A stretch of 64,000 bases of DNA, from assembly GCF_021401085.1 (NCBI RefSeq), contig NZ_JACBFP010000005.1, forward strand, positions 62,001-126,000. Reading direction: 5' to 3'. Below, piece by piece: positions 44,981 to 54,406 of this stretch. How positions within the stretch are numbered: the first letter of the stretch is position 1; each line of letters opens with the position of its first letter. Both the position numbers and the translations under genes were made by a program. The notes under the pieces were generated by a model. The model was given only the letters and a program-made list of their open reading frames with translations, did not search any database and was not told where the DNA came from. The stretch comes from Chryseobacterium sp. R2A-55. GTDB taxonomy: Bacteria > Bacteroidota > Bacteroidia > Flavobacteriales > Weeksellaceae.

Positions 44981-45048
44981 GAATTCAGAAAAAAAATTTG
45001 CAGCAAAAATACTGCAAACTTTTCCTAGTTTATTGATTTTAATGTTAA

Positions 45049-46233
45049 TTATTTTCTCACGAAACTTGCAACATCTTCCGCGGTCACTGGATTTGCTCCT
45101 AAGATGATCAATCTTTCGACCACGTTTCTCAGTTCGCGGATATTTCCTGTCCAGGAAAAATCTTCAAGTGCCTTAACCGCTTTGTCATCAAACTGCTTTG
45201 GTGCCGTTCCATGTTCATCGGCAATGGTTTTCGCGAAATGTTCGATGAGCATTTTAATGTCTTCTTTTCGCTCATCCAATGGTGGAACGTAAATTTCAAT
45301 AACAGAAAGCCTGTGGTAAAGGTCTTCTCGGAATTTTCCTGCCTCGATTTCTTTCGCCATATTCTTATTTGTCGCGGCCAAAACCCTTACATCGACTTTG
45401 ATTTCCTTGTCGCTTCCAACAGGCGAAACCTTGTTTTCCTGAAGTGCGCGTAGAACTTTTGCTTGTGCAATGAGTGACATGTCTCCGATTTCATCCAGGA
45501 AAATGGTACCGTTATTGGCGAGCTCAAATTTTCCCTGTTTGTCTTTGATGGCACCGGTAAAACTTCCTTTTACGTGTCCAAATAATTCGGATTCAATGAG
45601 TTCCGATGGAATAGCGGCACAATTTACTTCAATCATAGGACCTTTGCTGCGGTCGCTTTGTGCGTGAATGGCGTGTGCCACCAATTCTTTCCCGGCGCCG
45701 TTTGGACCGGTAATCAAGACTCGGGCATCAGATGGCGCTACCTTTTCGATCATATTCTGAATTTTTTTCAAAGCTGCCGATGCGCCGATCATTTGGTATT
45801 TTTTGTTGACTTTCTTTTTTAAAGTCGTATTCTCGCTTTTCAGATTCTGATTGGTTTTCTGAAGATTTCCTTTGTCCAAAGCGTTTTTTACACTGGTAAT
45901 CAGCCGGTTGATGTCGATTGGTTTCGAGATAAAGTCGTAGGCACCATTCTTAAGGCAATCTACCGCAGTATCGATGTCTGCGTGTCCGGAAATCATGACG
46001 AAAGTGGTATCTGGTTTTAGCTGCAGTGCTTGTTTCAAGAGATCAGAACCAGAAAGTTTTGGCATTTTGATATCTGAAATGACCAATGCGAAATCTTCTT
46101 TTTCTAAGCGTTTGTATGCTTCCAAACCGTCTTCGGCGACAATGAATTCGTAGTCTGAAAGTTCGTCGGAAAGAATACTGACTAAAACACCTGAAATGGC
46201 TTTTTCGTCCTCGACAATCAAAATTTTTTGCAT
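45049..46233 (-). CDS. NtrC-type sigma-54 activator response regulator without a DNA-binding domain
   Basis: 394 residues. Receiver domain 1-120 with phospho-acceptor Asp54 (LVISDIKMPKLSG). AAA+ domain from about 148 to 380: Walker A GPNGAGKE at 176-183, GSFTGA at 223-228 (the sigma-54 contact loop, GAFTGA in most relatives) and Walker B IFLDEIGDM. It ends RLIILGANPVTAEDVASFVRK, right after the AAA+ lid, so the Fis-type helix-turn-helix of NtrC is missing. It may act from solution on Es54, or with another DNA-bound protein. No partner histidine kinase is adjacent. Confidence 0.92.
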   Translation of the reverse strand: MQKILIVEDEKAISGVLVSILSDELSDYEFIVAEDGLEAYKRLEKEDFALVISDIKMPKLSGSDLLKQALQLKPDTTFVMISGHADIDTAVDCLKNGAYDFISKPIDINRLITSVKNALDKGNLQKTNQNLKSENTTLKKKVNKKYQMIGASAALKKIQNMIEKVAPSDARVLITGPNGAGKELVAHAIHAQSDRSKGPMIEVNCAAIPSELIESELFGHVKGSFTGAIKDKQGKFELANNGTIFLDEIGDMSLIAQAKVLRALQENKVSPVGSDKEIKVDVRVLAATNKNMAKEIEAGKFREDLYHRLSVIEIYVPPLDERKEDIKMLIEHFAKTIADEHGTAPKQFDDKAVKALEDFSWTGNIRELRNVVERLIILGANPVTAEDVASFVRK

Positions 46234-46311
46234 TAAATCAAATTTAAAGAATTAGTAAATGGTTGCATCTAATATCGCAAAGCATGTAGCAATAATCATA
46301 CCTAAAGCCAA

Positions 46312-46983
46312 TTATAATATATAATCTCTGTTGCCAAAAATTGCCGACCCAATCCTTACGGAATTTGCGCCACATGCGATTGCCAGTTGATAATCGCCGC
46401 TCATTCCCATGGATAAAGTTTTGAGGTTTTTCTTTAGTGAAAGCTGGTCATAGAGCTGCTTGAGGAAGTTGAATTCTTTTTTAATCTGGTTTTCGTTTTC
46501 TGTAAATGTTGCCATTCCCATCAATCCGGTAATCTCTATATTTGGGTATTTTCCATTGAGCCAGTCTGTGAAAATTTCTTTTGCCTCATGAAGTTCGAGT
46601 CCGAATTTGGATTCTTCCTCCGCAATTTTAACCTGAAGCAGTACTTTCACCTGTCTGTTGCAATTTTTTGCCTGCCTGTCTATTTCCAGCAGAAGTTTTT
46701 CGGAATCCACACTTTGGATGGTGTCAATAAATTCAATGATGTATTTTACCTTGTTTCTTTGGAGGTGGCCGATGAGATGCCAGCTGATGTCCTTTGGAAG
46801 TAGCGGATATTTTTCGGCAAGTTCCTGCACCTTGTTTTCGCCAAAAACTTTTTGTCCCAAATCGTAAACCGTGCGGATGACTTCCACAGGATGTGTTTTG
46901 GAAACCGCCACCAGTTCTACATTTTCTGGTAATAATTCAATAATCTGACGATAATTTTGCTCTATTTTTTTCGGGTCTTCCAT
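46312..46983 (-). CDS. PLP-binding homeostasis protein (YggS family)
   Basis: Single-domain alanine-racemase-fold protein that binds pyridoxal phosphate through Lys29 (ELVAVSKTHPVEVIR). Affects vitamin B6 and amino acid homeostasis; not a racemase in tested relatives. Other blocks: FGENKVQELAEKYPLL, WHLIGHLQRNKVKYI and MGMSGDYQLAIACGANSVRI. 223 residues, normal. It is divergent from the two-component operon at 47166. Confidence 0.94.
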   Translation of the reverse strand: MEDPKKIEQNYRQIIELLPENVELVAVSKTHPVEVIRTVYDLGQKVFGENKVQELAEKYPLLPKDISWHLIGHLQRNKVKYIIEFIDTIQSVDSEKLLLEIDRQAKNCNRQVKVLLQVKIAEEESKFGLELHEAKEIFTDWLNGKYPNIEITGLMGMATFTENENQIKKEFNFLKQLYDQLSLKKNLKTLSMGMSGDYQLAIACGANSVRIGSAIFGNRDYIL

Positions 46984-47098
46984 CTTAAGGATTGATGTGG
47001 TTTTTTCTAAGGTCGAACGAAAACTTGATGTTCTTGCAGAAACAAAATTAAAAGAAATCGTTCAGCAAATTGCTTATTTCTGCAAAGATATCACTTTT

Positions 47099-47112
47099 GG
47101 GTGTTTTCACCC
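47099..47112. promoter_or_regulatory. Palindrome GGGTGTTTTCACCC upstream of the two-component operon
   Basis: Five-bp perfect arms (GGGTG/CACCC). It matches the element at 49700-49713 at 13 of 14 bases and stands 24 bp before a TATATTTG box, like the other copy (23 bp). Candidate binding site of the NarL-type regulator coded in this operon. Confidence 0.65.
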
Positions 47113-47136
47113 TGATGTTGGTATTATTATAAAAAT

Positions 47137-47144
47137 TATATTTG
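47137..47144 (+). promoter_or_regulatory. -7 promoter box of the two-component operon
   Basis: TATATTTG, 21 bp before the first gene's ATG. Confidence 0.7.
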
Positions 47145-47165
47145 TTTAAGAAAAAAAATCAAATT

Positions 47166-47597
47166 ATGGGCAATTTAGAAAAGCATCTGATCAGTGCCGA
47201 ATCATGCAAAGTTTTGGCGAAACAGTATGAAAATAGCAACTACGCTGAAATTAATGGCAGCCGACCTGCTGGAAAGCCAGACTCAAAGGAATATACTTAC
47301 CAATTAGAGGTCCTCAAGGAATACATCATGATGATCGAAGGGGAAATGGAAAAGCGGGGAGTGAAAAATAAGGGGATCAGAGTCTCCATGGGAAAATATC
47401 CGGATGATTATGCTTCGCCAAACTTTGACCCTAAATACCGTGGTTACCAAACGGTCTTTTTTTCGGCCGTAGATTTGGATAGCGTTTCTTCAGAGCGTGC
47501 GATTTCAGAGGAGAGTGGGGTGGATTCATCTGTTTCTGGCGTTCTCGGTGATATTCCCAATATGGACTATGGTCAGATTTGTCCGCCATTCTGTTAA
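47166..47597 (+). CDS. Conserved-looking protein of unknown function, first gene of the two-component operon
   Basis: 143 residues, soluble, no signal or membrane segment. I do not recognise a named family. Visible features: an N-terminal helix MGNLEKHLISAESCKVLAKQ, a middle block SRPAGKPDSKEYTYQLEVLK, then GIRVSMGKYPDDYASPN, FDPKYRGYQTVFFSAVDLD, and a short C-terminal tail NMDYGQICPPFC with two Cys and Pro-Pro. The frame is open back to a TTG at 47142, but that lies in the promoter box, so ATG at 47166 is used. Cotranscribed with a seven-helix membrane protein, a kinase and a regulator, so a role as signal, chaperone or target of that system is possible. Confidence 0.75.
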   Translation: MGNLEKHLISAESCKVLAKQYENSNYAEINGSRPAGKPDSKEYTYQLEVLKEYIMMIEGEMEKRGVKNKGIRVSMGKYPDDYASPNFDPKYRGYQTVFFSAVDLDSVSSERAISEESGVDSSVSGVLGDIPNMDYGQICPPFC

Positions 47598-47613
47598 TTT
47601 AAAGATATTTAGT

Positions 47614-48279
47614 ATGAGTTGGAATCGAGATATTACATCTTTAGTGATTACATCCTTAATGCTCTTGACATTCATTTTGTTAGTGATTTTCCGGAGGAAA
47701 TTAGGCAAAAAAATCATTTATTTCATAATGGCAATAGGGATCGGTACTTTTATCGAAATTTTCATCAGTATCTCAAGGTGGGTTTTTCATATTGAGAATT
47801 CGATTAAATTGTATGTAGTCGGAACCAATCTTTTCGTCTTCCTGTTGTTTTTTATATATTTCCACAATCTCCTGGAAGTGAGAACGCTCAAGGCCATAAG
47901 TTCGGTTATTATCGGGTTATTTCTTTTGGAATATGGTTTGTCTGCGATTTTTATAGAGAATTTTTTCACTCACTTTCCATTTTTTAGCTACTTCATACAA
48001 GTGGTCTTGCTCAGCGGAAGTATTTATCTGGTGATTTCACAGGCCTTTAACTCGGATATTATTCTGAATTTGCGTGGATATTATCCAATTTGGATTTGCT
48101 CGGGATTGATGGTGATTTATTTAGGAATCATGCCTTTACTGATCATGAGCAATACCTCACAAAAATTGTTTAATATGAATGTGTTTTTTGGCATCCTTTT
48201 TTTGGTGAATGTTATTGGCTATTCCATACTGATTACAGGAATCCTGTTCGCTGACGCTAAACTTGGGCATAAAAAATGA
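47614..48279 (+). CDS. Seven-helix membrane protein, likely sensor part of the two-component system
   Basis: 221 residues with seven clear hydrophobic stretches (about 9-27, 33-53, 64-82, 89-110, 117-137, 150-170 and 182-208) and short loops; no recognised domain. The ATG at 47614 is chosen over an open frame that runs back to 47497 inside the previous gene. The ATGA overlap (48276-48279) with the kinase gene means coupled translation. The kinase has only one helix and no sensing domain, so I infer that this protein senses the signal, possibly a lipophilic or membrane one, and passes it on to the kinase. Confidence 0.8.
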   Translation: MSWNRDITSLVITSLMLLTFILLVIFRRKLGKKIIYFIMAIGIGTFIEIFISISRWVFHIENSIKLYVVGTNLFVFLLFFIYFHNLLEVRTLKAISSVIIGLFLLEYGLSAIFIENFFTHFPFFSYFIQVVLLSGSIYLVISQAFNSDIILNLRGYYPIWICSGLMVIYLGIMPLLIMSNTSQKLFNMNVFFGILFLVNVIGYSILITGILFADAKLGHKK

Positions 48280-49046
48280 ATCTTTCTGCAAACGATTTTT
48301 TGATTGTTGCAACTACCTTTATTATTCTGGTTGTCGTTTTAATGATGGTGATGATTTATGGAATCTTTATCAAAAAGAAGTCCAAATTACTCATGGAACA
48401 TCAGAAAAAAGACGCACTGTTCGAACAGGAGCTGGCCATTTCTCAAATCGAAATTAAGGAACAAACTTTAAATTATATTGGGCAGGAGCTCCATGACGAT
48501 TTGGGCCAAAAATTATCCGTGGCAAGATTGATGACCAACAAGATCACTTTGACAGGTTGTGCAGAAAACGTGCAAATTGCCAAGGAACTCAATATGCTTG
48601 TTGGTGAATGTATACAGGATATCAGGAATCTTTCAAAGGTTTTTATTACCGGCCAGATTGAACAATTTGGCCTGGTTGATTCTATAGAAAGGGAAGTTCG
48701 ACGAATAAAAAGATTGGACCTCCTAGAAGTTGATTATCAAATAAATAATGGTAACTTTGAATTGGATTCTGATCATTCATTAATTCTGTTTAGGATTGTG
48801 CAGGAATGCATCACCAATGTAATCAAGCACTCGAAATCAAATGTGCTGAGAATCACCCTTGAAAATGAGCCTGATCTTATCAGGATTATTGTGGAGGATA
48901 AAGGCATAGGAATGATTATGAAGGAAATTAAGCGTGGAACAGGTTTAATTAATATGGAGAATCGAGCCAAATTAATTGGTGCAGGGTTGAAAATAAATTC
49001 TTTGGAAAATGTGGGGACAAAAGTGACCTTGGTCTATAATAAATAA
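48276..49046 (+). CDS. Sensor histidine kinase, HisKA_3 type
   Basis: 256 residues. One N-terminal membrane helix (8-31) followed by a coiled coil (33-65), the phospho-acceptor His73 in YIGQELHDDLGQKLSVA, and a GHKL ATPase domain: N box RIVQECITNVIKHS, G1 VEDKGIGM, G2 KRGTGLINMENRA. Belongs to the NarX/DesK group that pairs with NarL-type regulators, which is the next gene. It has no periplasmic or PAS sensor domain. Start overlaps the membrane protein stop. Confidence 0.93.
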   Translation: MNLSANDFLIVATTFIILVVVLMMVMIYGIFIKKKSKLLMEHQKKDALFEQELAISQIEIKEQTLNYIGQELHDDLGQKLSVARLMTNKITLTGCAENVQIAKELNMLVGECIQDIRNLSKVFITGQIEQFGLVDSIEREVRRIKRLDLLEVDYQINNGNFELDSDHSLILFRIVQECITNVIKHSKSNVLRITLENEPDLIRIIVEDKGIGMIMKEIKRGTGLINMENRAKLIGAGLKINSLENVGTKVTLVYNK

Positions 49047-49049
49047 TTG

Positions 49050-49694
49050 ATGAATATGATAAAACTCGCTATTGTAGATGATCATAAGTTGGTATCCAAA
49101 GCACTGGAAAACATGATTTCCTTTAATTCCAATTTTACAGTAATTAATACAAGTTTTAATGGCGAAGAGTTCCTACAGTATTTAAGGTCAAGTAATGATC
49201 TGCCTGATGTAGCATTGATGGACGTAAATATGCCGATTAAGAACGGTATTGAGACCACCGAAATTCTCTCGGAAGAATTCCCACACATCAAGGTCATCGC
49301 ACTTACCATGGAGGACAATGAAAGCACCATCATCAAAATGCTGAAGGCTGGAGCAAAAGGATATCTTCTAAAAGACATGTCACCGGAAATCCTGTTCAAT
49401 GCAATCGATATCGTGCACGAAAAAGGGGTGTTCTATACTGATATCATCTCAGAATCCTTACTGAAAATCAGAATTGAAGACCAAGAAATCACAGATCTTT
49501 TAAAAGAAGTAAGGGACAAGGAATTGGAATTTATTAAGCTCGCATGCTCAGAACTTACTTATAAAGAAATTGCGGATCAAATGTGTGTAAGTCCCAGAAC
49601 CATAGATGGATATCGCGATTCAGTGTTTGCGAAGTTACACGTCAAAAGTAGGGTGGGAATTGTGCTGTATGCCATCAAGCACAATTTGCTTTGA
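49050..49694 (+). CDS. NarL/LuxR-type response regulator
   Basis: 214 residues. Receiver with DDHK at 10-13 and phospho-acceptor Asp58 (ALMDVNMPIKNG), Lys in YLLKDMSPE; C-terminal LuxR helix-turn-helix: SELTYKEIADQMCVSPRTID, GYRDSVFAKLHVKSRVG. Start ATG at 49050 or 49056. Follows the kinase after 3 bp. The palindromes ahead of this operon and right after it are natural candidate targets. Confidence 0.94.
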   Translation: MNMIKLAIVDDHKLVSKALENMISFNSNFTVINTSFNGEEFLQYLRSSNDLPDVALMDVNMPIKNGIETTEILSEEFPHIKVIALTMEDNESTIIKMLKAGAKGYLLKDMSPEILFNAIDIVHEKGVFYTDIISESLLKIRIEDQEITDLLKEVRDKELEFIKLACSELTYKEIADQMCVSPRTIDGYRDSVFAKLHVKSRVGIVLYAIKHNLL

Positions 49695-49699
49695 AAAAT

Positions 49700-49713
49700 G
49701 GGTGATTTCACCC
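49700..49713. promoter_or_regulatory. Palindrome GGGTGATTTCACCC ahead of the short transcript
   Basis: Perfect six-bp arms GGGTGA/TCACCC with a TT centre. It begins 5 bp after the regulator gene and stands 23 bp before TACCTTTG, matching the site at 47099. Confidence 0.65.
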
Positions 49714-49736
49714 TTTTATTATGTTCTTATGTTTTC

Positions 49737-49744
49737 TACCTTTG
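49737..49744 (+). promoter_or_regulatory. -7 promoter box of the candidate small RNA
   Basis: TACCTTTG, exact consensus; predicted start near 49749-49751. Confidence 0.65.
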
Positions 49745-49748
49745 TAGC

Positions 49749-49912
49749 ATGAAAAAAGAAAAACACAAATGATGAAGATTTTAGGAAGAAGACTCAAAAC
49801 ATTATGATTTAGGTGGAGAGTCTTCTAAGCAAAACACTCACCCTAATTAGGGATCGAGGAACATCACAAAAAAGCCGTCTTTCACTATTGGAGAGACGGC
49901 TTCTTTTTTTAT
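49749..49912 (+). ncRNA. Candidate structured small RNA downstream of the two-component operon
   Basis: About 165 nt from its own promoter to a strong terminator. Stem 1: AGAAGACTC (49787-49795) pairs with GAGTCTTCT (49818-49826). Palindrome CCCTAATTAGGG at 49841-49852. Terminator AAGCCGTCT (49872-49880) / AGACGGCTT (49894-49902), then T7. The only frames are two overlapping tiny ones (49749-49772, MKKEKHK; 49772-49807, MKILGRRLKTL), which may be chance or leader peptides. It cannot be an attenuator, as the next gene, cobB, points the other way. Function unknown. Confidence 0.6.
49872..49910. terminator. Bidirectional terminator of the small RNA and of cobB
   Basis: Nine-bp perfect stem with T7 on the plus side and A6 before the stem, which gives T6 on the minus side after cobB. 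Confidence 0.88.
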
Positions 49913-49967
49913 TATTCGAAAACTGAATTTTTAAGTCCAAATTCTCGCTGTTCTTCGAAAAATTCAT

Positions 49968-50657
49968 TCAGCGGTATCTATCCATAAGAATTTCCTTTAA
50001 TCTAGTCATTCCTTGAGTGGCAGAAGTTTTGAGGAAGTTTTCGTTCTTCACGAAACTATTTTCCAGATGGGGATCAATCGCGAAAACTTCACAGCCATTT
50101 GGGATGTAATGAATCAAACTTGCCGCTGGATAAACCTGCAGCGAAGTACCTATTACCAAAAGAAGATCCGCCTTTTCAGCAATGGATGCGGCCTTATTCA
50201 TGTTCGGAACCATCTCGCCAAACCAAACAATATGAGGTCGAAGCTGGATCCCTTCATGATTCAGATCACCCAAATTCAAGTCCCCTTCCCAGGGAATTTC
50301 ATTTTTGCCTGAGTTAACGGGGCGAGCTTTTTTCAGTTCACCATGTAAATGCGTCACTTTTGTGGAGCCGGCTCTCTCATGCAGATCATCCACATTTTGG
50401 GTAATGATTTCCACATCAAAATACCGTTCCAATTCCGCCAAGATTTCATGTGCCTTGTTGGGGAAAACACTTTTGAGTTGTCTTCGTCTTTCATTATAAA
50501 AATCGAAAACCAATTGTGGATTGCGCTCAAAACCTTCCGGACTCGCTACATCTTCGATCCTGTGATTTTCCCATAGTCCATCGGCATCACGAAAAGTTTT
50601 TACACCGCTTTCCGCCGAAATTCCGGCTCCGGATAAAACCACCAGCTTTTTCTTCAT
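49968..50657 (-). CDS. cobB: Sirtuin deacylase, SIRT5-like group
   Basis: NAD-dependent removal of acyl groups from lysines. GAGISAESGVKTFRDADGLW (residues 10-29) binds NAD; TQNVDDLHERAG and the catalytic His105 of THLHGEL follow. The pair Tyr54 and Arg57 (FDFYNERRRQ) is the SIRT5-type signature for succinyl- and malonyl-lysine. The four zinc-binding Cys of most sirtuins are all absent: the segment KKARPVNSGKNEIPWEGDL has none. 229 residues. The 98-residue membrane protein gene lies 26 bp upstream on the same strand. Confidence 0.93.
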   Translation of the reverse strand: MKKKLVVLSGAGISAESGVKTFRDADGLWENHRIEDVASPEGFERNPQLVFDFYNERRRQLKSVFPNKAHEILAELERYFDVEIITQNVDDLHERAGSTKVTHLHGELKKARPVNSGKNEIPWEGDLNLGDLNHEGIQLRPHIVWFGEMVPNMNKAASIAEKADLLLVIGTSLQVYPAASLIHYIPNGCEVFAIDPHLENSFVKNENFLKTSATQGMTRLKEILMDRYR

Positions 50658-50683
50658 CTTAATTTTTTCCTAAAAATACGAAT

Positions 50684-50980
50684 CTATTTGATCATATTCA
50701 AACTTACGAAAATGACTGTACAAGAAATGCAGATTAGCGCAAACAAAAACAGGTAATCACCAAATTTTTCATACCTTTTTTCTAAAACGTCACTTTCTGT
50801 CCTGATGGCCAGGAAGGAGAGGATGCAACTTACAACTAGCGAGAGGCTCGCAATGGCCGCAATGTCATCCACATATGTGGCGCCACTGATTTTTGATATT
50901 TTCAAAGAGGTGATGATCAGTAAACAAAACCCCAGCAAATTAGAGGAAGCATTCAGCACATGTGGTGATTTCTTTTCCAT
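50684..50980 (-). CDS. Small membrane protein of unknown function
   Basis: 98 residues with three hydrophobic segments (about 14-28, 38-58 and 73-95) separated by a charged loop TESDVLEKRYEKFGD. Not recognised. It stands 26 bp before cobB on the same strand, so they may be cotranscribed, but no functional tie is known. Confidence 0.65.
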   Translation of the reverse strand: MEKKSPHVLNASSNLLGFCLLIITSLKISKISGATYVDDIAAIASLSLVVSCILSFLAIRTESDVLEKRYEKFGDYLFLFALICISCTVIFVSLNMIK

Positions 50981-51110
50981 TTTTCGGATATATTTTTTTT
51001 CGAGTCAAAAATAACGCTGAAATCATCTACTGGATAGAAATTTAAAAAACTTTAGCAGTCCTTAAAAAATCATTAACCCAAATTTAGCGTAGAAAATCAG
51101 CGTAAATCAC

Positions 51111-51118
51111 TAAATTTG
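51111..51118 (+). promoter_or_regulatory. -7 promoter box of gpmI
   Basis: TAAATTTG, 22 bp before the gpmI ATG. Confidence 0.6.
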
Positions 51119-51140
51119 TTGTTTACTAAAAAAATCAAAA

Positions 51141-52676
51141 ATGTCAAAAAAAGCCATTTTAGCCATACTCGACGGATGGGGATTGGGAAAAGACCCAAAA
51201 GTTTCAGCCATCGCACAAGCTAATACACCATTTATCGATTCGTGTTATCAGAAATTTCCACACACCACCCTCGAAGCGAGTGGAATTGCGGTTGGATTGC
51301 CGGCTGGACAAATGGGAAATTCCGAAGTGGGGCACATGAATTTGGGGGCTGGAAGAGTGGTTTACCAAAATTTGGTGAAACTCAACATGGCCGTTGAAAA
51401 CGCAACTTTAGGGAAGGAAAATGTCATCACGGAAGCATTCCAGTATGCCCAGGAAAACAAAAAGAAAGTTCACTTCATTGGTTTGGTTTCAGATGGTGGT
51501 GTTCATTCCCATATTAACCATTTGAAAGGACTTTTGACTGCAGCGCATGAATATGGTTTAAACAAAAACGTTTTTGTGCATGCATTTACAGATGGGCGCG
51601 ATTGTGATCCCCATTCGGGTAAAGGGTTTATAGAAGATATAATGCATCACATGAAATCCAGCACCGGAAAATTGGCCACTGTTGTCGGAAGATATTATGC
51701 GATGGATCGGGACAAAAGATGGGAAAGGGTGAAATTGGCTTATGATGCGATGGTGCACGGAATCGGCCAGGAAACGATGGAGCCTGTTCACGCCATCCAA
51801 AAATCTTATGATGAAGGAATTACCGATGAATTCTTAAAACCGATTGTCTGCACCGGCACCAACACCAACAAACTTCCTGTGGCCCAGATTGCAGAGGGCG
51901 ACGTTGTTTTTTGCTTTAATTTCAGGACAGACAGAGGCCGGGAAATCACGCAGGTTCTCTCTCAGCAGGATTTTCAGGATTATGGAATGAAACATTTAAA
52001 TCTTTATTATGTTACATTGACCAATTATGACAAGGATTTCAAAAATGTAAAAGTAGTTTTTGACGAGGAAGTTTTGCGGGAAACCATGGGCGAAATTTTA
52101 GAGAAAAACGGAAAAACCCAAATCCGTGTTGCCGAAACCGAAAAATATCCACACGTCACCTTTTTCTTTTCAGGTGGGAGAGAACAACCTTATCATGGCG
52201 AGAAAAGAATCCTTTGTCCAAGTCCGAAAGATGTTCCGACCTACGATTTTAAACCGGAAATGTCTGCTTACGACATCACTGAAAAAATTCTTCCCGAAAT
52301 CAAAAATGAAACCGCAGATTTTATTTGTTTAAACTTTGCAAACACCGACATGGTAGGTCATACCGGAGTTTTTTCCGCAGCGGTAAAAGCCGCTGAAACC
52401 GTTGATGAATGCATCCAAAAAGTCGCCACTGCTGCTTATGAACACGGATATGCCGTCTTCATACTTGCAGACCACGGAAACTCTGATGTAATGATCAATC
52501 CGGACGGAAGTCCAAACACGCAACACTCTACCAATCTTGTTCCACTGATTGTGATGGATAAAGACCGAACATGGAATCTGAAACCGGGAAAATTGGGAGA
52601 TGTCGCACCTTCTATTTTAAAAGTAATGGGTATTGATATTCCGGAATTAATGACTGGAGAGGTTTTGGTGAGTTAA
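51141..52676 (+). CDS. gpmI: 2,3-bisphosphoglycerate-independent phosphoglycerate mutase
   Basis: Manganese enzyme of glycolysis and gluconeogenesis, alkaline phosphatase fold. Metal ligand Asp11 in LAILDGWGLG, phospho-acceptor Ser61 in GQMGNSEVGHMNLGAGR, and later metal motifs FADHGNSD-like ILADHGNSDVMINPDG and NFANTDMVGHTG. 511 residues, full length. Confidence 0.97.
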   Translation: MSKKAILAILDGWGLGKDPKVSAIAQANTPFIDSCYQKFPHTTLEASGIAVGLPAGQMGNSEVGHMNLGAGRVVYQNLVKLNMAVENATLGKENVITEAFQYAQENKKKVHFIGLVSDGGVHSHINHLKGLLTAAHEYGLNKNVFVHAFTDGRDCDPHSGKGFIEDIMHHMKSSTGKLATVVGRYYAMDRDKRWERVKLAYDAMVHGIGQETMEPVHAIQKSYDEGITDEFLKPIVCTGTNTNKLPVAQIAEGDVVFCFNFRTDRGREITQVLSQQDFQDYGMKHLNLYYVTLTNYDKDFKNVKVVFDEEVLRETMGEILEKNGKTQIRVAETEKYPHVTFFFSGGREQPYHGEKRILCPSPKDVPTYDFKPEMSAYDITEKILPEIKNETADFICLNFANTDMVGHTGVFSAAVKAAETVDECIQKVATAAYEHGYAVFILADHGNSDVMINPDGSPNTQHSTNLVPLIVMDKDRTWNLKPGKLGDVAPSILKVMGIDIPELMTGEVLVS

Positions 52677-52680
52677 AAGA

Positions 52681-52848
52681 ATGGGAATAAATAAAATTGA
52701 AGGCAAAGAAATTCGCAGCACTACTAAACGGTCAAAAAAAACAGGCGAGTCTAAAACAGATCGGCGAATCGAAATCGAAAATGACCAAATTGTCCCCCAA
52801 AGATCGAAATCCAGCGGTAAGCATTGGTTATTTATTATTTTAATTTAA
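52681..52848 (+). CDS. Possible 55-residue protein after gpmI
   Basis: ATG 4 bp after the gpmI stop opens a frame of 55 codons: Lys/Arg/Ser-rich N-terminal part (MGINKIEGKEIRSTTKRSKK) and a hydrophobic end HWLFIILI. No family recognised. A basic leader with a short tail could be real or chance; the promoter of the next gene lies after its stop. Confidence 0.2.
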   Translation: MGINKIEGKEIRSTTKRSKKTGESKTDRRIEIENDQIVPQRSKSSGKHWLFIILI

Positions 52849-52875
52849 TTATGGTACAAATAATATTTTTTAAAT

Positions 52876-52883
52876 TATCTTTG
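52876..52883 (+). promoter_or_regulatory. -7 promoter box of the acyl-ACP desaturase gene
   Basis: TATCTTTG, 19 bp before the ATG. Confidence 0.6.
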
Positions 52884-52902
52884 CCGAAAACGTAAAAGCA
52901 GA

Positions 52903-53880
52903 ATGTACAACAAATTAGTGAGGACTGAGGTCATGCGGAATCTGGGTAAAGAAGTGGGCAAATTCATTTCCTCATACTTGACCCCAGTGGAAAAAATATG
53001 GCAACCTACAGATTTCCTGCCGGATCCATCTGGCGAAAATTTTAAATATGAAGTGGAGGAACTCCAAAGCTATGCTCAGGAAATGGGGTATGACTTATTT
53101 GTTACCTTAATTGGGGACTGTATCACTGAAGAGGCATTGCCAAGTTACGAATCCTGGATCATGGGAATCGACGGCATAGACCAGGAAAACAGAAGCGGTT
53201 GGTCACAATGGGTGAGAAGTTGGACCGCCGAAGAAAACAGACACGGAGATCTGCTTAACAAATACCTCTACCTTTGTGGAAGAGTGAATATGCGTGAAAT
53301 CGAGATTACCACTCAATATCTGATTCAAGATGGATTTGATTTGGGAACCTCCATGGATCCTTACCGAAACTTTGTCTATACCAGCTTTCAGGAAACTGCA
53401 ACCAACATTTCCCATAGGAGAGTGGGAACCTTAGCTAAACAAAGCGGCAATACCAAACTTGCAAAAATGTGTGCAGTAATTGCTGCAGATGAAGCAAGAC
53501 ACGCAAAAGCCTATAAGCATTTTGTGACTAGGATTTTCGAACTGGATCCTTCTGAAATGATGCTCGCTTTTGAAGATATGATGAAGAAAAAAATCGTGAT
53601 GCCTGCACATCTCATGAGGGAATCCGGACAGAAAGCGGGCGAGCTTTGGTCTCATTTTTCAGATGCGGCACAAAGGGCGATGGTTTATACCGGTCAGGAT
53701 TATATCAATATTCTCAGCGAATTATTGAATGACTGGAAAATTGAACACATCGACGGATTAACTGAGCAGGCGCAAAAAGCACAGGAATACCTGATGAAAC
53801 TTCCGACAAGATTGCAACGAATCACAGATCGGCTTGCCACGCCGGATCTGCAATACCAATTCAAGTGGGTGAAATCATAG
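52903..53880 (+). CDS. Acyl-ACP desaturase (ferritin-like di-iron type)
   Basis: Soluble enzyme that puts a double bond in acyl-ACP. Two di-iron motifs: EENRHG near residue 110 (WTAEENRHGDLL) and DEARHA near 196 (AADEARHAKAYKHF), matching the plant stearoyl-ACP desaturase fold. 325 residues. In Flavobacteriia it is the usual source of unsaturated fatty acids, acting with a ferredoxin. Terminator follows; single gene. Confidence 0.94.
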   Translation: MYNKLVRTEVMRNLGKEVGKFISSYLTPVEKIWQPTDFLPDPSGENFKYEVEELQSYAQEMGYDLFVTLIGDCITEEALPSYESWIMGIDGIDQENRSGWSQWVRSWTAEENRHGDLLNKYLYLCGRVNMREIEITTQYLIQDGFDLGTSMDPYRNFVYTSFQETATNISHRRVGTLAKQSGNTKLAKMCAVIAADEARHAKAYKHFVTRIFELDPSEMMLAFEDMMKKKIVMPAHLMRESGQKAGELWSHFSDAAQRAMVYTGQDYINILSELLNDWKIEHIDGLTEQAQKAQEYLMKLPTRLQRITDRLATPDLQYQFKWVKS

Positions 53881-53908
53881 AACCAAATCATATCAAACTA
53901 TATTTTCG

Positions 53909-53944
53909 AAGAGCGGCTGGATTTTTCACCCGCTCTTTAATTTT
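53909..53944 (+). terminator. Terminator of the desaturase gene
   Basis: AAGAGCGG (53909-53916) pairs with CCGCTCTT (53930-53937), followed by TAATTTT, overlapping the promoter of the next gene. Confidence 0.75.
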
Positions 53945-53946
53945 AT

Positions 53947-53954
53947 TATCTTTG
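53947..53954 (+). promoter_or_regulatory. -7 promoter box of the HAD-like gene
   Basis: TATCTTTG, 20 bp before the ATG. Confidence 0.55.
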
Positions 53955-53974
53955 CCTTGCCAAAATTTATTTTG

Positions 53975-54406
53975 ATGAAAAGCACAAAAAAACTAGCCAT
54001 TGATTTCGATGGAACAATTGTAGAGGATGCTTATCCAGGAATTGGAAAGCCAAAAACTTTCGCCTTTGAAACCCTGAAGAAACTGCAATCCGAAGGCTAT
54101 AGGTTAATTCTCTGGACTTATAGACATGGGAAAACTTTGGAAGAAGCAGTGGAATTCTGCCGAAAAAATGGGGTGGAATTCTATGCAGTGAACTCAAGTT
54201 TTGAGGGAGAGATTTTTGATGCTGCAGGGGCTTCCCGAAAAATCGATGCAGACCTTTTCATTGACGACCGAAATCTGGGCGGTTTCCCTGGATGGGGCGA
54301 AATCTACAACATCATCAACGAAAGAATTGAATTCCGTGTAGAAGGAAATGAGGTTTTGCCCTATTCAAAAATGAAAAAAGAAAGAAAAAAAGGATTGTTC
54401 TGGTAA
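53975..54406 (+). CDS. HAD-superfamily hydrolase of the BT0820-like group
   Basis: 143 residues with motif I IDFDGTIVED (Asp10 nucleophile, Asp12 acid), a Thr of motif II in LILWTYRHGK and motif III/IV acidic pair LFIDDRNLGGFP. Short cap-less HAD enzymes of this type are common in Bacteroidota; the substrate is unknown and a phosphatase activity is inferred. The frame extends upstream to a TTG at 53957, which is too near the promoter box, so ATG 53975 is chosen. Ends with a basic tail KMKKERKKGLFW. Confidence 0.87.
   Translation: MKSTKKLAIDFDGTIVEDAYPGIGKPKTFAFETLKKLQSEGYRLILWTYRHGKTLEEAVEFCRKNGVEFYAVNSSFEGEIFDAAGASRKIDADLFIDDRNLGGFPGWGEIYNIINERIEFRVEGNEVLPYSKMKKERKKGLFW

Follow-up and report, generated by a model that had tools for sequence, protein, structure and literature searches.

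The intergenic unit behind a NarL-type response regulator gene of Kaistella and its relatives has a conserved box, promoter spacing, motif and terminator; the box recurs at other promoters, and a module complementary to the motif stands before the terminators of further small RNAs. From this layout we infer that the unit is transcribed into a small RNA (sRNA-1), which protein binds the box, that a duplex forms in the cell and in which direction regulation runs. We propose on sequence grounds, with confidence that is about evenly balanced, that the NarL-type regulator would induce a short RNA imitating a translation start site, and that this RNA would sponge a multicopy family of antisense small RNAs. 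The window analysed, the whole stretch of 64,000 nt, is part of a 2.93-Mb genome, and it was compared chiefly with genomes of Kaistella (Weeksellaceae).

Layout of the locus

The features of the locus are given in Table 1. The palindrome, the TAnnTTTG box, the non-coding stretch, the 9-bp stem with its 22-nt loop, the 12-base palindrome and the terminator described in an earlier sequence-only reading were all present, and the next gene, of the Sir2 family, lay on the opposite strand as it had said. According to the sections of PMC9723704 used here, the −7 box occupies −12 to −5, which places +1 of sRNA-1 at about 49750, one base from the start at 49749 claimed before. The terminator headed a list of 12 terminator-like sites in 45000-54000. 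The only frames of at least 40 aa touching 49700-49912 were 49606-49752 (+), 49577-49711 (−) and 49809-49967 (−), and the frame opened by the ATG of the motif had 12 aa. Upstream, proteins similar to the product of operon gene 1 were found behind the box in relatives, the product of operon gene 2 reads as a membrane protein, and the response regulator may start at 49047 or 49050 instead of 49056. The box at 47099 predicts autoregulation of the two-component operon.

Table 1. Features of the two-component operon and the adjoining sRNA-1 unit (positions in the window).
Feature	Position	Strand	Basis or remark
Operon-promoter copy of the regulator box, GGGTGTTTTCACCC	47099..47112	+	box-pattern match (G000:C31:109099)
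−7 box of the operon promoter, TATATTTG	47137..47144	+	38 nt start-to-start from box
Operon gene 1, conserved protein without Pfam match	47167..47597	+	
Operon gene 2, hydrophobic protein without Pfam match	47614..48279	+	
Histidine kinase, HisKA_3 and HATPase_c	48276..49046	+	Pfam
NarL/LuxR-type response regulator, Response_reg and GerE	49056..49694	+	Pfam
Probable site of the regulator, palindromic GGGTGATTTCACCC, centred near −42.5	49700..49713	+	
−7 promoter box of sRNA-1, TACCTTTG	49738..49745	+	
sRNA-1, predicted small RNA, 163 nt in the window's genome	49750..49912	+	+1 from −7 box, end from terminator
AAAACACAAATGATGAAG around the conserved core	49760..49777	+	complementary to anti-motif small RNAs
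12-mer core ACACAAATGATG	49763-49774	+	inside AAAACACAAATGATGAAG
Dispersed repeat replacing the 3' end of relatives, supplies terminator	49785..49914 (limits approximate)	+	
9-bp stem, 22-nt loop	49787-49795/49818-49826		inside repeat
12-base palindrome CCCTAATTAGGG	49841-49852		inside repeat
Intrinsic terminator hairpin, then T-run	49872..49902	+	inside repeat
Sir2-family gene, convergent neighbour outside the unit	49968..50657	−	Pfam

The regulator box and its predicted regulon

The regulator was detected at E<=1e-30 in 33 of the 36 Kaistella genomes of the set, the exceptions being G012, G026 and G028. In all 33, GGTGWTTT, nearly always in the form GGGTGWTTTMAC, stood 1-8 nt past the regulator stop codon; the site began with GGGTG in 32 and with AGGTG in G025. 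The distance from the start of the box to the start of the −7 box was 37 nt in 28 genomes and 36 nt in 5. The 14-nt site was thus centred at about −42.5, at activator distance for a regulator site, and this is a class II activator position. TTG was found within −37 to −26 in only 12 of the 33 genomes, the window's genome not among them, so that 21 have no obvious −33 element in that interval. The site ended in CACGC, CACGG, CACTC, AACGC or AACTC rather than CACCC in 20 of the 33; the palindrome is therefore broken there, yet the box sequence and the spacing of 36-37 nt were kept.

The strict pattern of box and promoter, GGGTGWTTTMAC-N23-26-TANNWTTG, had 97 sites in the 36 Kaistella genomes, compared with 1 for the reversed control. 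Outside Kaistella it was present in 3 of 260 family genomes, one site each; a regulator relative at E<=1e-60 was present in 81 of the 260 (114 of 296 overall). The strict box preceded sRNA-1 in 30 of the 33 regulator genomes (33 on a looser reading) and preceded the operon, or directly the regulator gene (G020, G033), in 21. Operon sites were counted by reading their places because the automatic site classes were rough: on inspection L086 and L120, two of the eight sites classed as 'operon', did not look like operon sites, and the 'other' class held at least three sRNA-2 sites and several operon sites. The box also stood before several genes reading as secreted proteins, including a prolyl-oligopeptidase-like one and 'MMKLNLVPGFL' (names by reading).

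Such recurrence before the operon, the small RNAs and secreted-protein genes fits autoregulation and a regulon of the NarL-type regulator, and the box is probably the site of this regulator. The view that a small-RNA gene adjoins the two-component system and is probably controlled by it thus gained weight on two counts, the copy of the box at the operon's own promoter and the box at fixed spacing behind the regulator in every relative that keeps the regulator (33/33). Among the regulator-less genomes, G026 and G028 had no strict box, and the single one in G012 reads as standing before an operon remnant. The same layout with a diverged box was seen in genus g5 (G039, G086, G069). In g21 genomes with the regulator (L096, L099, L101, L103), a AAAGGTGTTTTTCCTTT-like sequence, possibly a diverged box, lay downstream of the regulator, and the motif was absent there.

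Two further kinds of predicted RNA were found behind the box. A second small RNA (sRNA-2), with this box and promoter, was present in 13 genomes beside a convergent gene reading as an ion channel (by reading). It contained ACACAAATGATG exactly in 12 of the 13, and some genomes held a further copy with ATGATT or ATGATG at its end. A U-rich RNA (about UUCUUUAUAUUUAUUUUUUUUAAAGC) followed the same box in 6 Kaistella genomes (L070, L080, L083, L117, L147, L148), located right behind sRNA-1 in G009, G019 and G022 and elsewhere in G002, G018 and G031.

The conserved RNA is predicted to be short, and a repeat takes its 3' end in the window's genome

A DNA search divided the region into a 5' part conserved in place and a 3' part (about 49785-49914) that is a dispersed repeat. 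Besides the copy at sRNA-1, the window's genome held two others and G023 one. The repeat carries a terminator of its own, and relatives lack it at the sRNA-1 position. In the window's genome the repeat has taken over the 3' end of sRNA-1. The 3' half as a piece of the conserved RNA was therefore rejected on the DNA search and the alignment. Folding of the 164 nt gave −47.6 kcal/mol against a shuffle mean of −25.9 (z −6.4, better than 200 of 200 shuffles), but this energy should not be read as a property of the conserved RNA, because both extra stems and the terminator belong to the repeat.

Downstream of the −7 box, ACACAAATnATGAAAA was matched at 11 or more of 15 positions in 32 of the 33 genomes, G032 being without the motif, and its score was reached by at most 2 of 200 shuffles in 30 of the 33. 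The core reads ATAATG instead of ATGATG in 13 of the 33, which is a mismatch to the anti-motif module described below. A short terminator hairpin followed the motif in 27 aligned sequences (25 Kaistella, 2 genus g5). Motif and short terminator together indicate a usual RNA of about 60 nt in relatives; K. koreensis (G011), with a regulator 90% identical, has this form.

The earlier description of a 164-nt RNA with two functional stems was not upheld. Both extra stems belong to the repeat, which the genome holds at two other places, the RNA of relatives is about 60 nt long and ends at another terminator, and the conserved motif had been missed. Covariation, which that reading had proposed as a check on the stems, was found only in the terminator of relatives, with two-sided changes at 4 of 6 pairs among the 27 sequences.

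The repeat copies in the window and at L002, L003 and L005 measured about 125 bp and ended in a AAGCCGTCT..AGACGGCTT terminator. This dispersed repeat may spread terminators.

Anti-motif RNAs

The 12-mer ACACAAATGATG had 239 exact sites in the 36 Kaistella genomes as against 3 for the reversed sequence. Its exact complement forms a module, UUUUCAUCAUUUGUGUUUU, just before a terminator, and the 3' layout of these anti-motif RNAs is a U-run, CAUCAUUUGUGUUUUU, a hairpin and a second U-run. Among 71 exact sites in 11 genomes, 34 were anti-motifs directly before a terminator, 2-5 per genome in all 11; 14 were RNAs with a downstream terminator and 4 were starts of longer frames. These classes were assigned roughly by script, with 19 sites unclassified and one of the 4 'starts' a copy of sRNA-2. 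The small number of clear mRNA starts (4 of 71, that copy included) was counted against a sponge. The window's genome contained three exact anti-motif RNAs (C4:28663, C11:506294, C35:85849).

Where a module stands immediately behind a gene's stop codon, as some do, the transcribed strand is fixed. The forward strand of the anti-motif sites as the RNA was accordingly rejected: the T-run is on the other strand and several copies come directly after a stop codon. We compiled 60 modules from 52 loci chosen for their antisense look, plus six loci of G213 and G039; L324, among the chosen loci, yielded no module. The hairpins varied in sequence across the 60 modules while their pairing was kept. At L183, L244, L160 and L257, in four genomes, the module lay right behind the stop of a frame ending in DGE..PPP.K/R and is a 3'UTR-borne copy. 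At L214-L218, anti-motif RNA units stood in tandem, two or three to an array and about 170 nt apart.

Outside Kaistella, 239 of 260 genomes had at least one 12-mer site. The 12-mer was frequent in g21, g9, g11 and g5, among others; its frequency in g10, g17, g19, g22 and g29 was close to that of the control. No g9, g11 or g24 genome was among the 114 with a regulator relative. In the regulator-less G026 and G028, no anti-motif was found within 2 mismatches; G012 keeps it. A widespread 12-mer, a rare box and genera lacking the regulator indicate that the anti-motif network is not tied to the NarL-type regulator, and the network is probably older.

Complementarity of sRNA-1 to the anti-motif RNAs

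Against the three anti-motif modules of the window's genome, sRNA-1 formed uninterrupted Watson-Crick runs of 17, 18 and 18 nt. Shuffles (500 for each pair) gave mean runs of 7.8-8.0 and a maximum of 14. Over 31 pairs from 11 genomes (10 Kaistella, 1 g5), tested with only the first module of loci holding several, 25 were equalled by at most 2 of 200 shuffles. For the pairs of G007, 4, 10 and 11 of 200 shuffles were as good or better; this weakness follows from its sRNA-1, which reads ATAATG. The complementarity of sRNA-1 to the domain that these small RNAs share is thus conserved, as would be expected of a sponge, and it is weaker in the ATAATG variants. An unconstrained duplex test of the whole RNA gave a weak result, equalled by 26, 9 and 29 of 300 shuffles, and was counted against a sponge. 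The motif was predicted to be 65% unpaired in the window's sRNA-1, compared with 43% overall, and 46-75% unpaired in four relatives, with 0.46 in G011 compared with 0.51 for the rest of its RNA. In the three anti-motif RNAs the motif region was predicted to be 67-78% unpaired (50-60% overall).

Proposed mechanism and alternatives

In the proposed mechanism, the NarL-type regulator would bind the palindromic box at about −42.5 and, once bound, switch on both its own operon and the short RNA. The conserved core of sRNA-1, ACACAAAUGAUGAAAA, resembles an A-rich Bacteroidota translation start site. It would pair with multicopy RNAs whose 3' module is UUUUUUCAUCAUUUGUGUUUU followed by a terminator hairpin, and these would otherwise cover mRNA start sites of the kind ACACAAAUGAUGAAA, including those of some secreted-protein mRNAs. 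Induced sRNA-1 would serve as a decoy that titrates the anti-motif RNAs and frees ACACAAAUGAUG-type start sites. The lack of anti-motifs in the regulator-less G026 and G028 was counted in favour of this mechanism. Besides the weak whole-RNA test and the few clear mRNA starts, the ATAATG variants, the missing motif of G032, the motif of G011 that is no more open than its surroundings, and a network not bound to the regulator speak against it. That the anti-motif RNAs would repress is suggested by the precedent of FopS, as described in part of PMC11697453, and that a regulator-linked RNA could titrate a small-RNA family by QrrT/QrrX, as described in part of PMC9732341. We advance more tentatively, at somewhat less than even confidence, the wider claim that this Weeksellaceae two-component system controls secreted-protein genes twice, through GGGTGWTTTMAC-box promoters and through at least two start-mimic RNAs that titrate a partly 3'UTR-borne antisense family.

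Four other explanations were weighed. In a Gac/Rsm-like system, ACAAAUGAUG of the induced RNAs would bind an RNA-binding protein other than CsrA and titrate that protein rather than RNAs. The likeness to Gac/Rsm of Pseudomonas, as set out in the parts of PMC2375449 used, lies in a two-component regulator of NarL type, a palindromic upstream activating sequence as in GacA/RsmXYZ, and several small RNAs with a common short motif, which at least two box-driven RNAs here contain once or twice each. The motif, however, is the complement of other RNAs and not GGA, and sRNA-1 holds one copy, whereas RsmA sequestration needed multiple GGA motifs (PMC2375449). CsrA (PF02599) was detected in none of the 36 genomes, as against 3 of 14 control genomes, so that the system is not a Gac/Rsm member in the strict sense. 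Protein titration also leaves unexplained why an exact complement stands before the terminators of 2-5 RNAs per genome, and we regard it as unlikely. We regard as quite unlikely a further explanation, in which box and RNA are real but the box is bound by some other regulator, or mRNAs rather than anti-motif RNAs are the direct targets of sRNA-1. We infer the binding of the box by the NarL-type regulator, and one of three regulator-less genomes keeps a box, which leaves room for this explanation; that box, however, precedes the apparent operon remnant of G012, and in 21 of the 33 genomes (by reading) the operon of the regulator has a box site at either end.

The core could alternatively start a tiny peptide overlapping the terminator, given that it resembles a start site and that ATG or GTG is kept in nearly all sequences, with none in G025 (by reading). 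The would-be peptides of relatives nevertheless differ from one another in frame and sequence and range in length from about 4 to 40 residues (by reading), and the same core recurs in the longer sRNA-2, where frames are unrelated or soon closed. A peptide was rejected on these two grounds, and a mini-gene is decidedly unlikely. Very improbable is a plain 3' region, with the palindrome as terminator of the regulator gene, TAnnTTTG there by chance and the hairpin serving the convergent gene. The locus does sit between convergent genes, and the palindrome with its T's is rated a weak terminator whichever way it is read. Such a region would not explain a box and spacing that outlast the palindrome in 20 of the 33 genomes, the recurrence of the box before operons and other genes, or a unit kept where a gene that looks unlike the sirtuin comes next (G017, G002). 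Antisense action into the sirtuin gene was rejected, since some genomes have another gene at that place.

If the sponge mechanism is true, a NarL-type regulator runs a target-mimic circuit, and two-component control and RNA sponging are joined in Kaistella and relatives. We know of no RNA sponge system in the phylum Bacteroidota, and to our knowledge few of its small RNAs have a known regulator, partner and target. From this one intergenic unit come a predicted site for the regulator, a regulon and a predicted network of pairing RNAs, all of them open to mutant tests.

Relation to known systems

At gathering scores, Rfam gave nothing in the window and a tRNA, but no small RNA, in 10 network loci; 28 sub-threshold matches around the finding had E of 0.24 or worse and were judged to be chance. 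In the open-licence literature, none of the titles and abstract beginnings among the matches listed describes sRNA-1, the box or the motif. The statements that follow draw on parts of the papers cited.

The closest known systems are QrrT/QrrX of Vibrio and FopS of Bacteroides. In Vibrio cholerae, the gene of the LysR-type regulator QrrT is linked to that of the small RNA QrrX, which QrrT activates; QrrX, found with Hfq, pairs with the conserved pairing domain of Qrr1-4 and neutralises them (PMC9732341). Common to both is a regulator-linked RNA, here predicted, that pairs with the shared domain of a small-RNA family. Unlike QrrT/QrrX, the Kaistella system has a two-component regulator of NarL type, two or more RNAs driven from the box and a core resembling a translation start, belongs to Bacteroidota and is known from sequence alone. 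The FopS RNAs of Bacteroides thetaiotaomicron are multicopy paralogous small RNAs that share a single-stranded seed before the terminator hairpin and bind near start codons, and the antagonist described is a protein, RbpB (PMC11697453). By description alone, the anti-motif RNAs resemble them in being multicopy with a module before the terminator hairpin. The word 'sponge' is absent from the main text of that paper. A small RNA from a related family (Flavobacteriaceae), again compared by description alone, is Rfp18 of Flavobacterium psychrophilum, which is widely conserved in its genus, required for precise protease expression and strongly structured, and which pairs through its third stem-loop; no two-component link is described for Rfp18 in the sections of PMC9723704 used.

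Other occurrences of the motif

The sense motif was also found in short RNAs with other promoters, for example at C11:32682 in the window's genome (L185), at gene starts (L220, L222, L223, L224) and in apparent 3'UTRs (by reading; L221, L167, L168). L185, L240, L250 and L271 are short RNAs with the motif and without the regulator box, and the last three have TTGAC upstream of TAnnTTTG. In G008, G017 and G030 (L025, L027, L029, L030), a hairpin of the form GGGGAAAG..CTTCCCC was present in multiple copies, its loop containing ACACAAATGATGAAGAAAAG.
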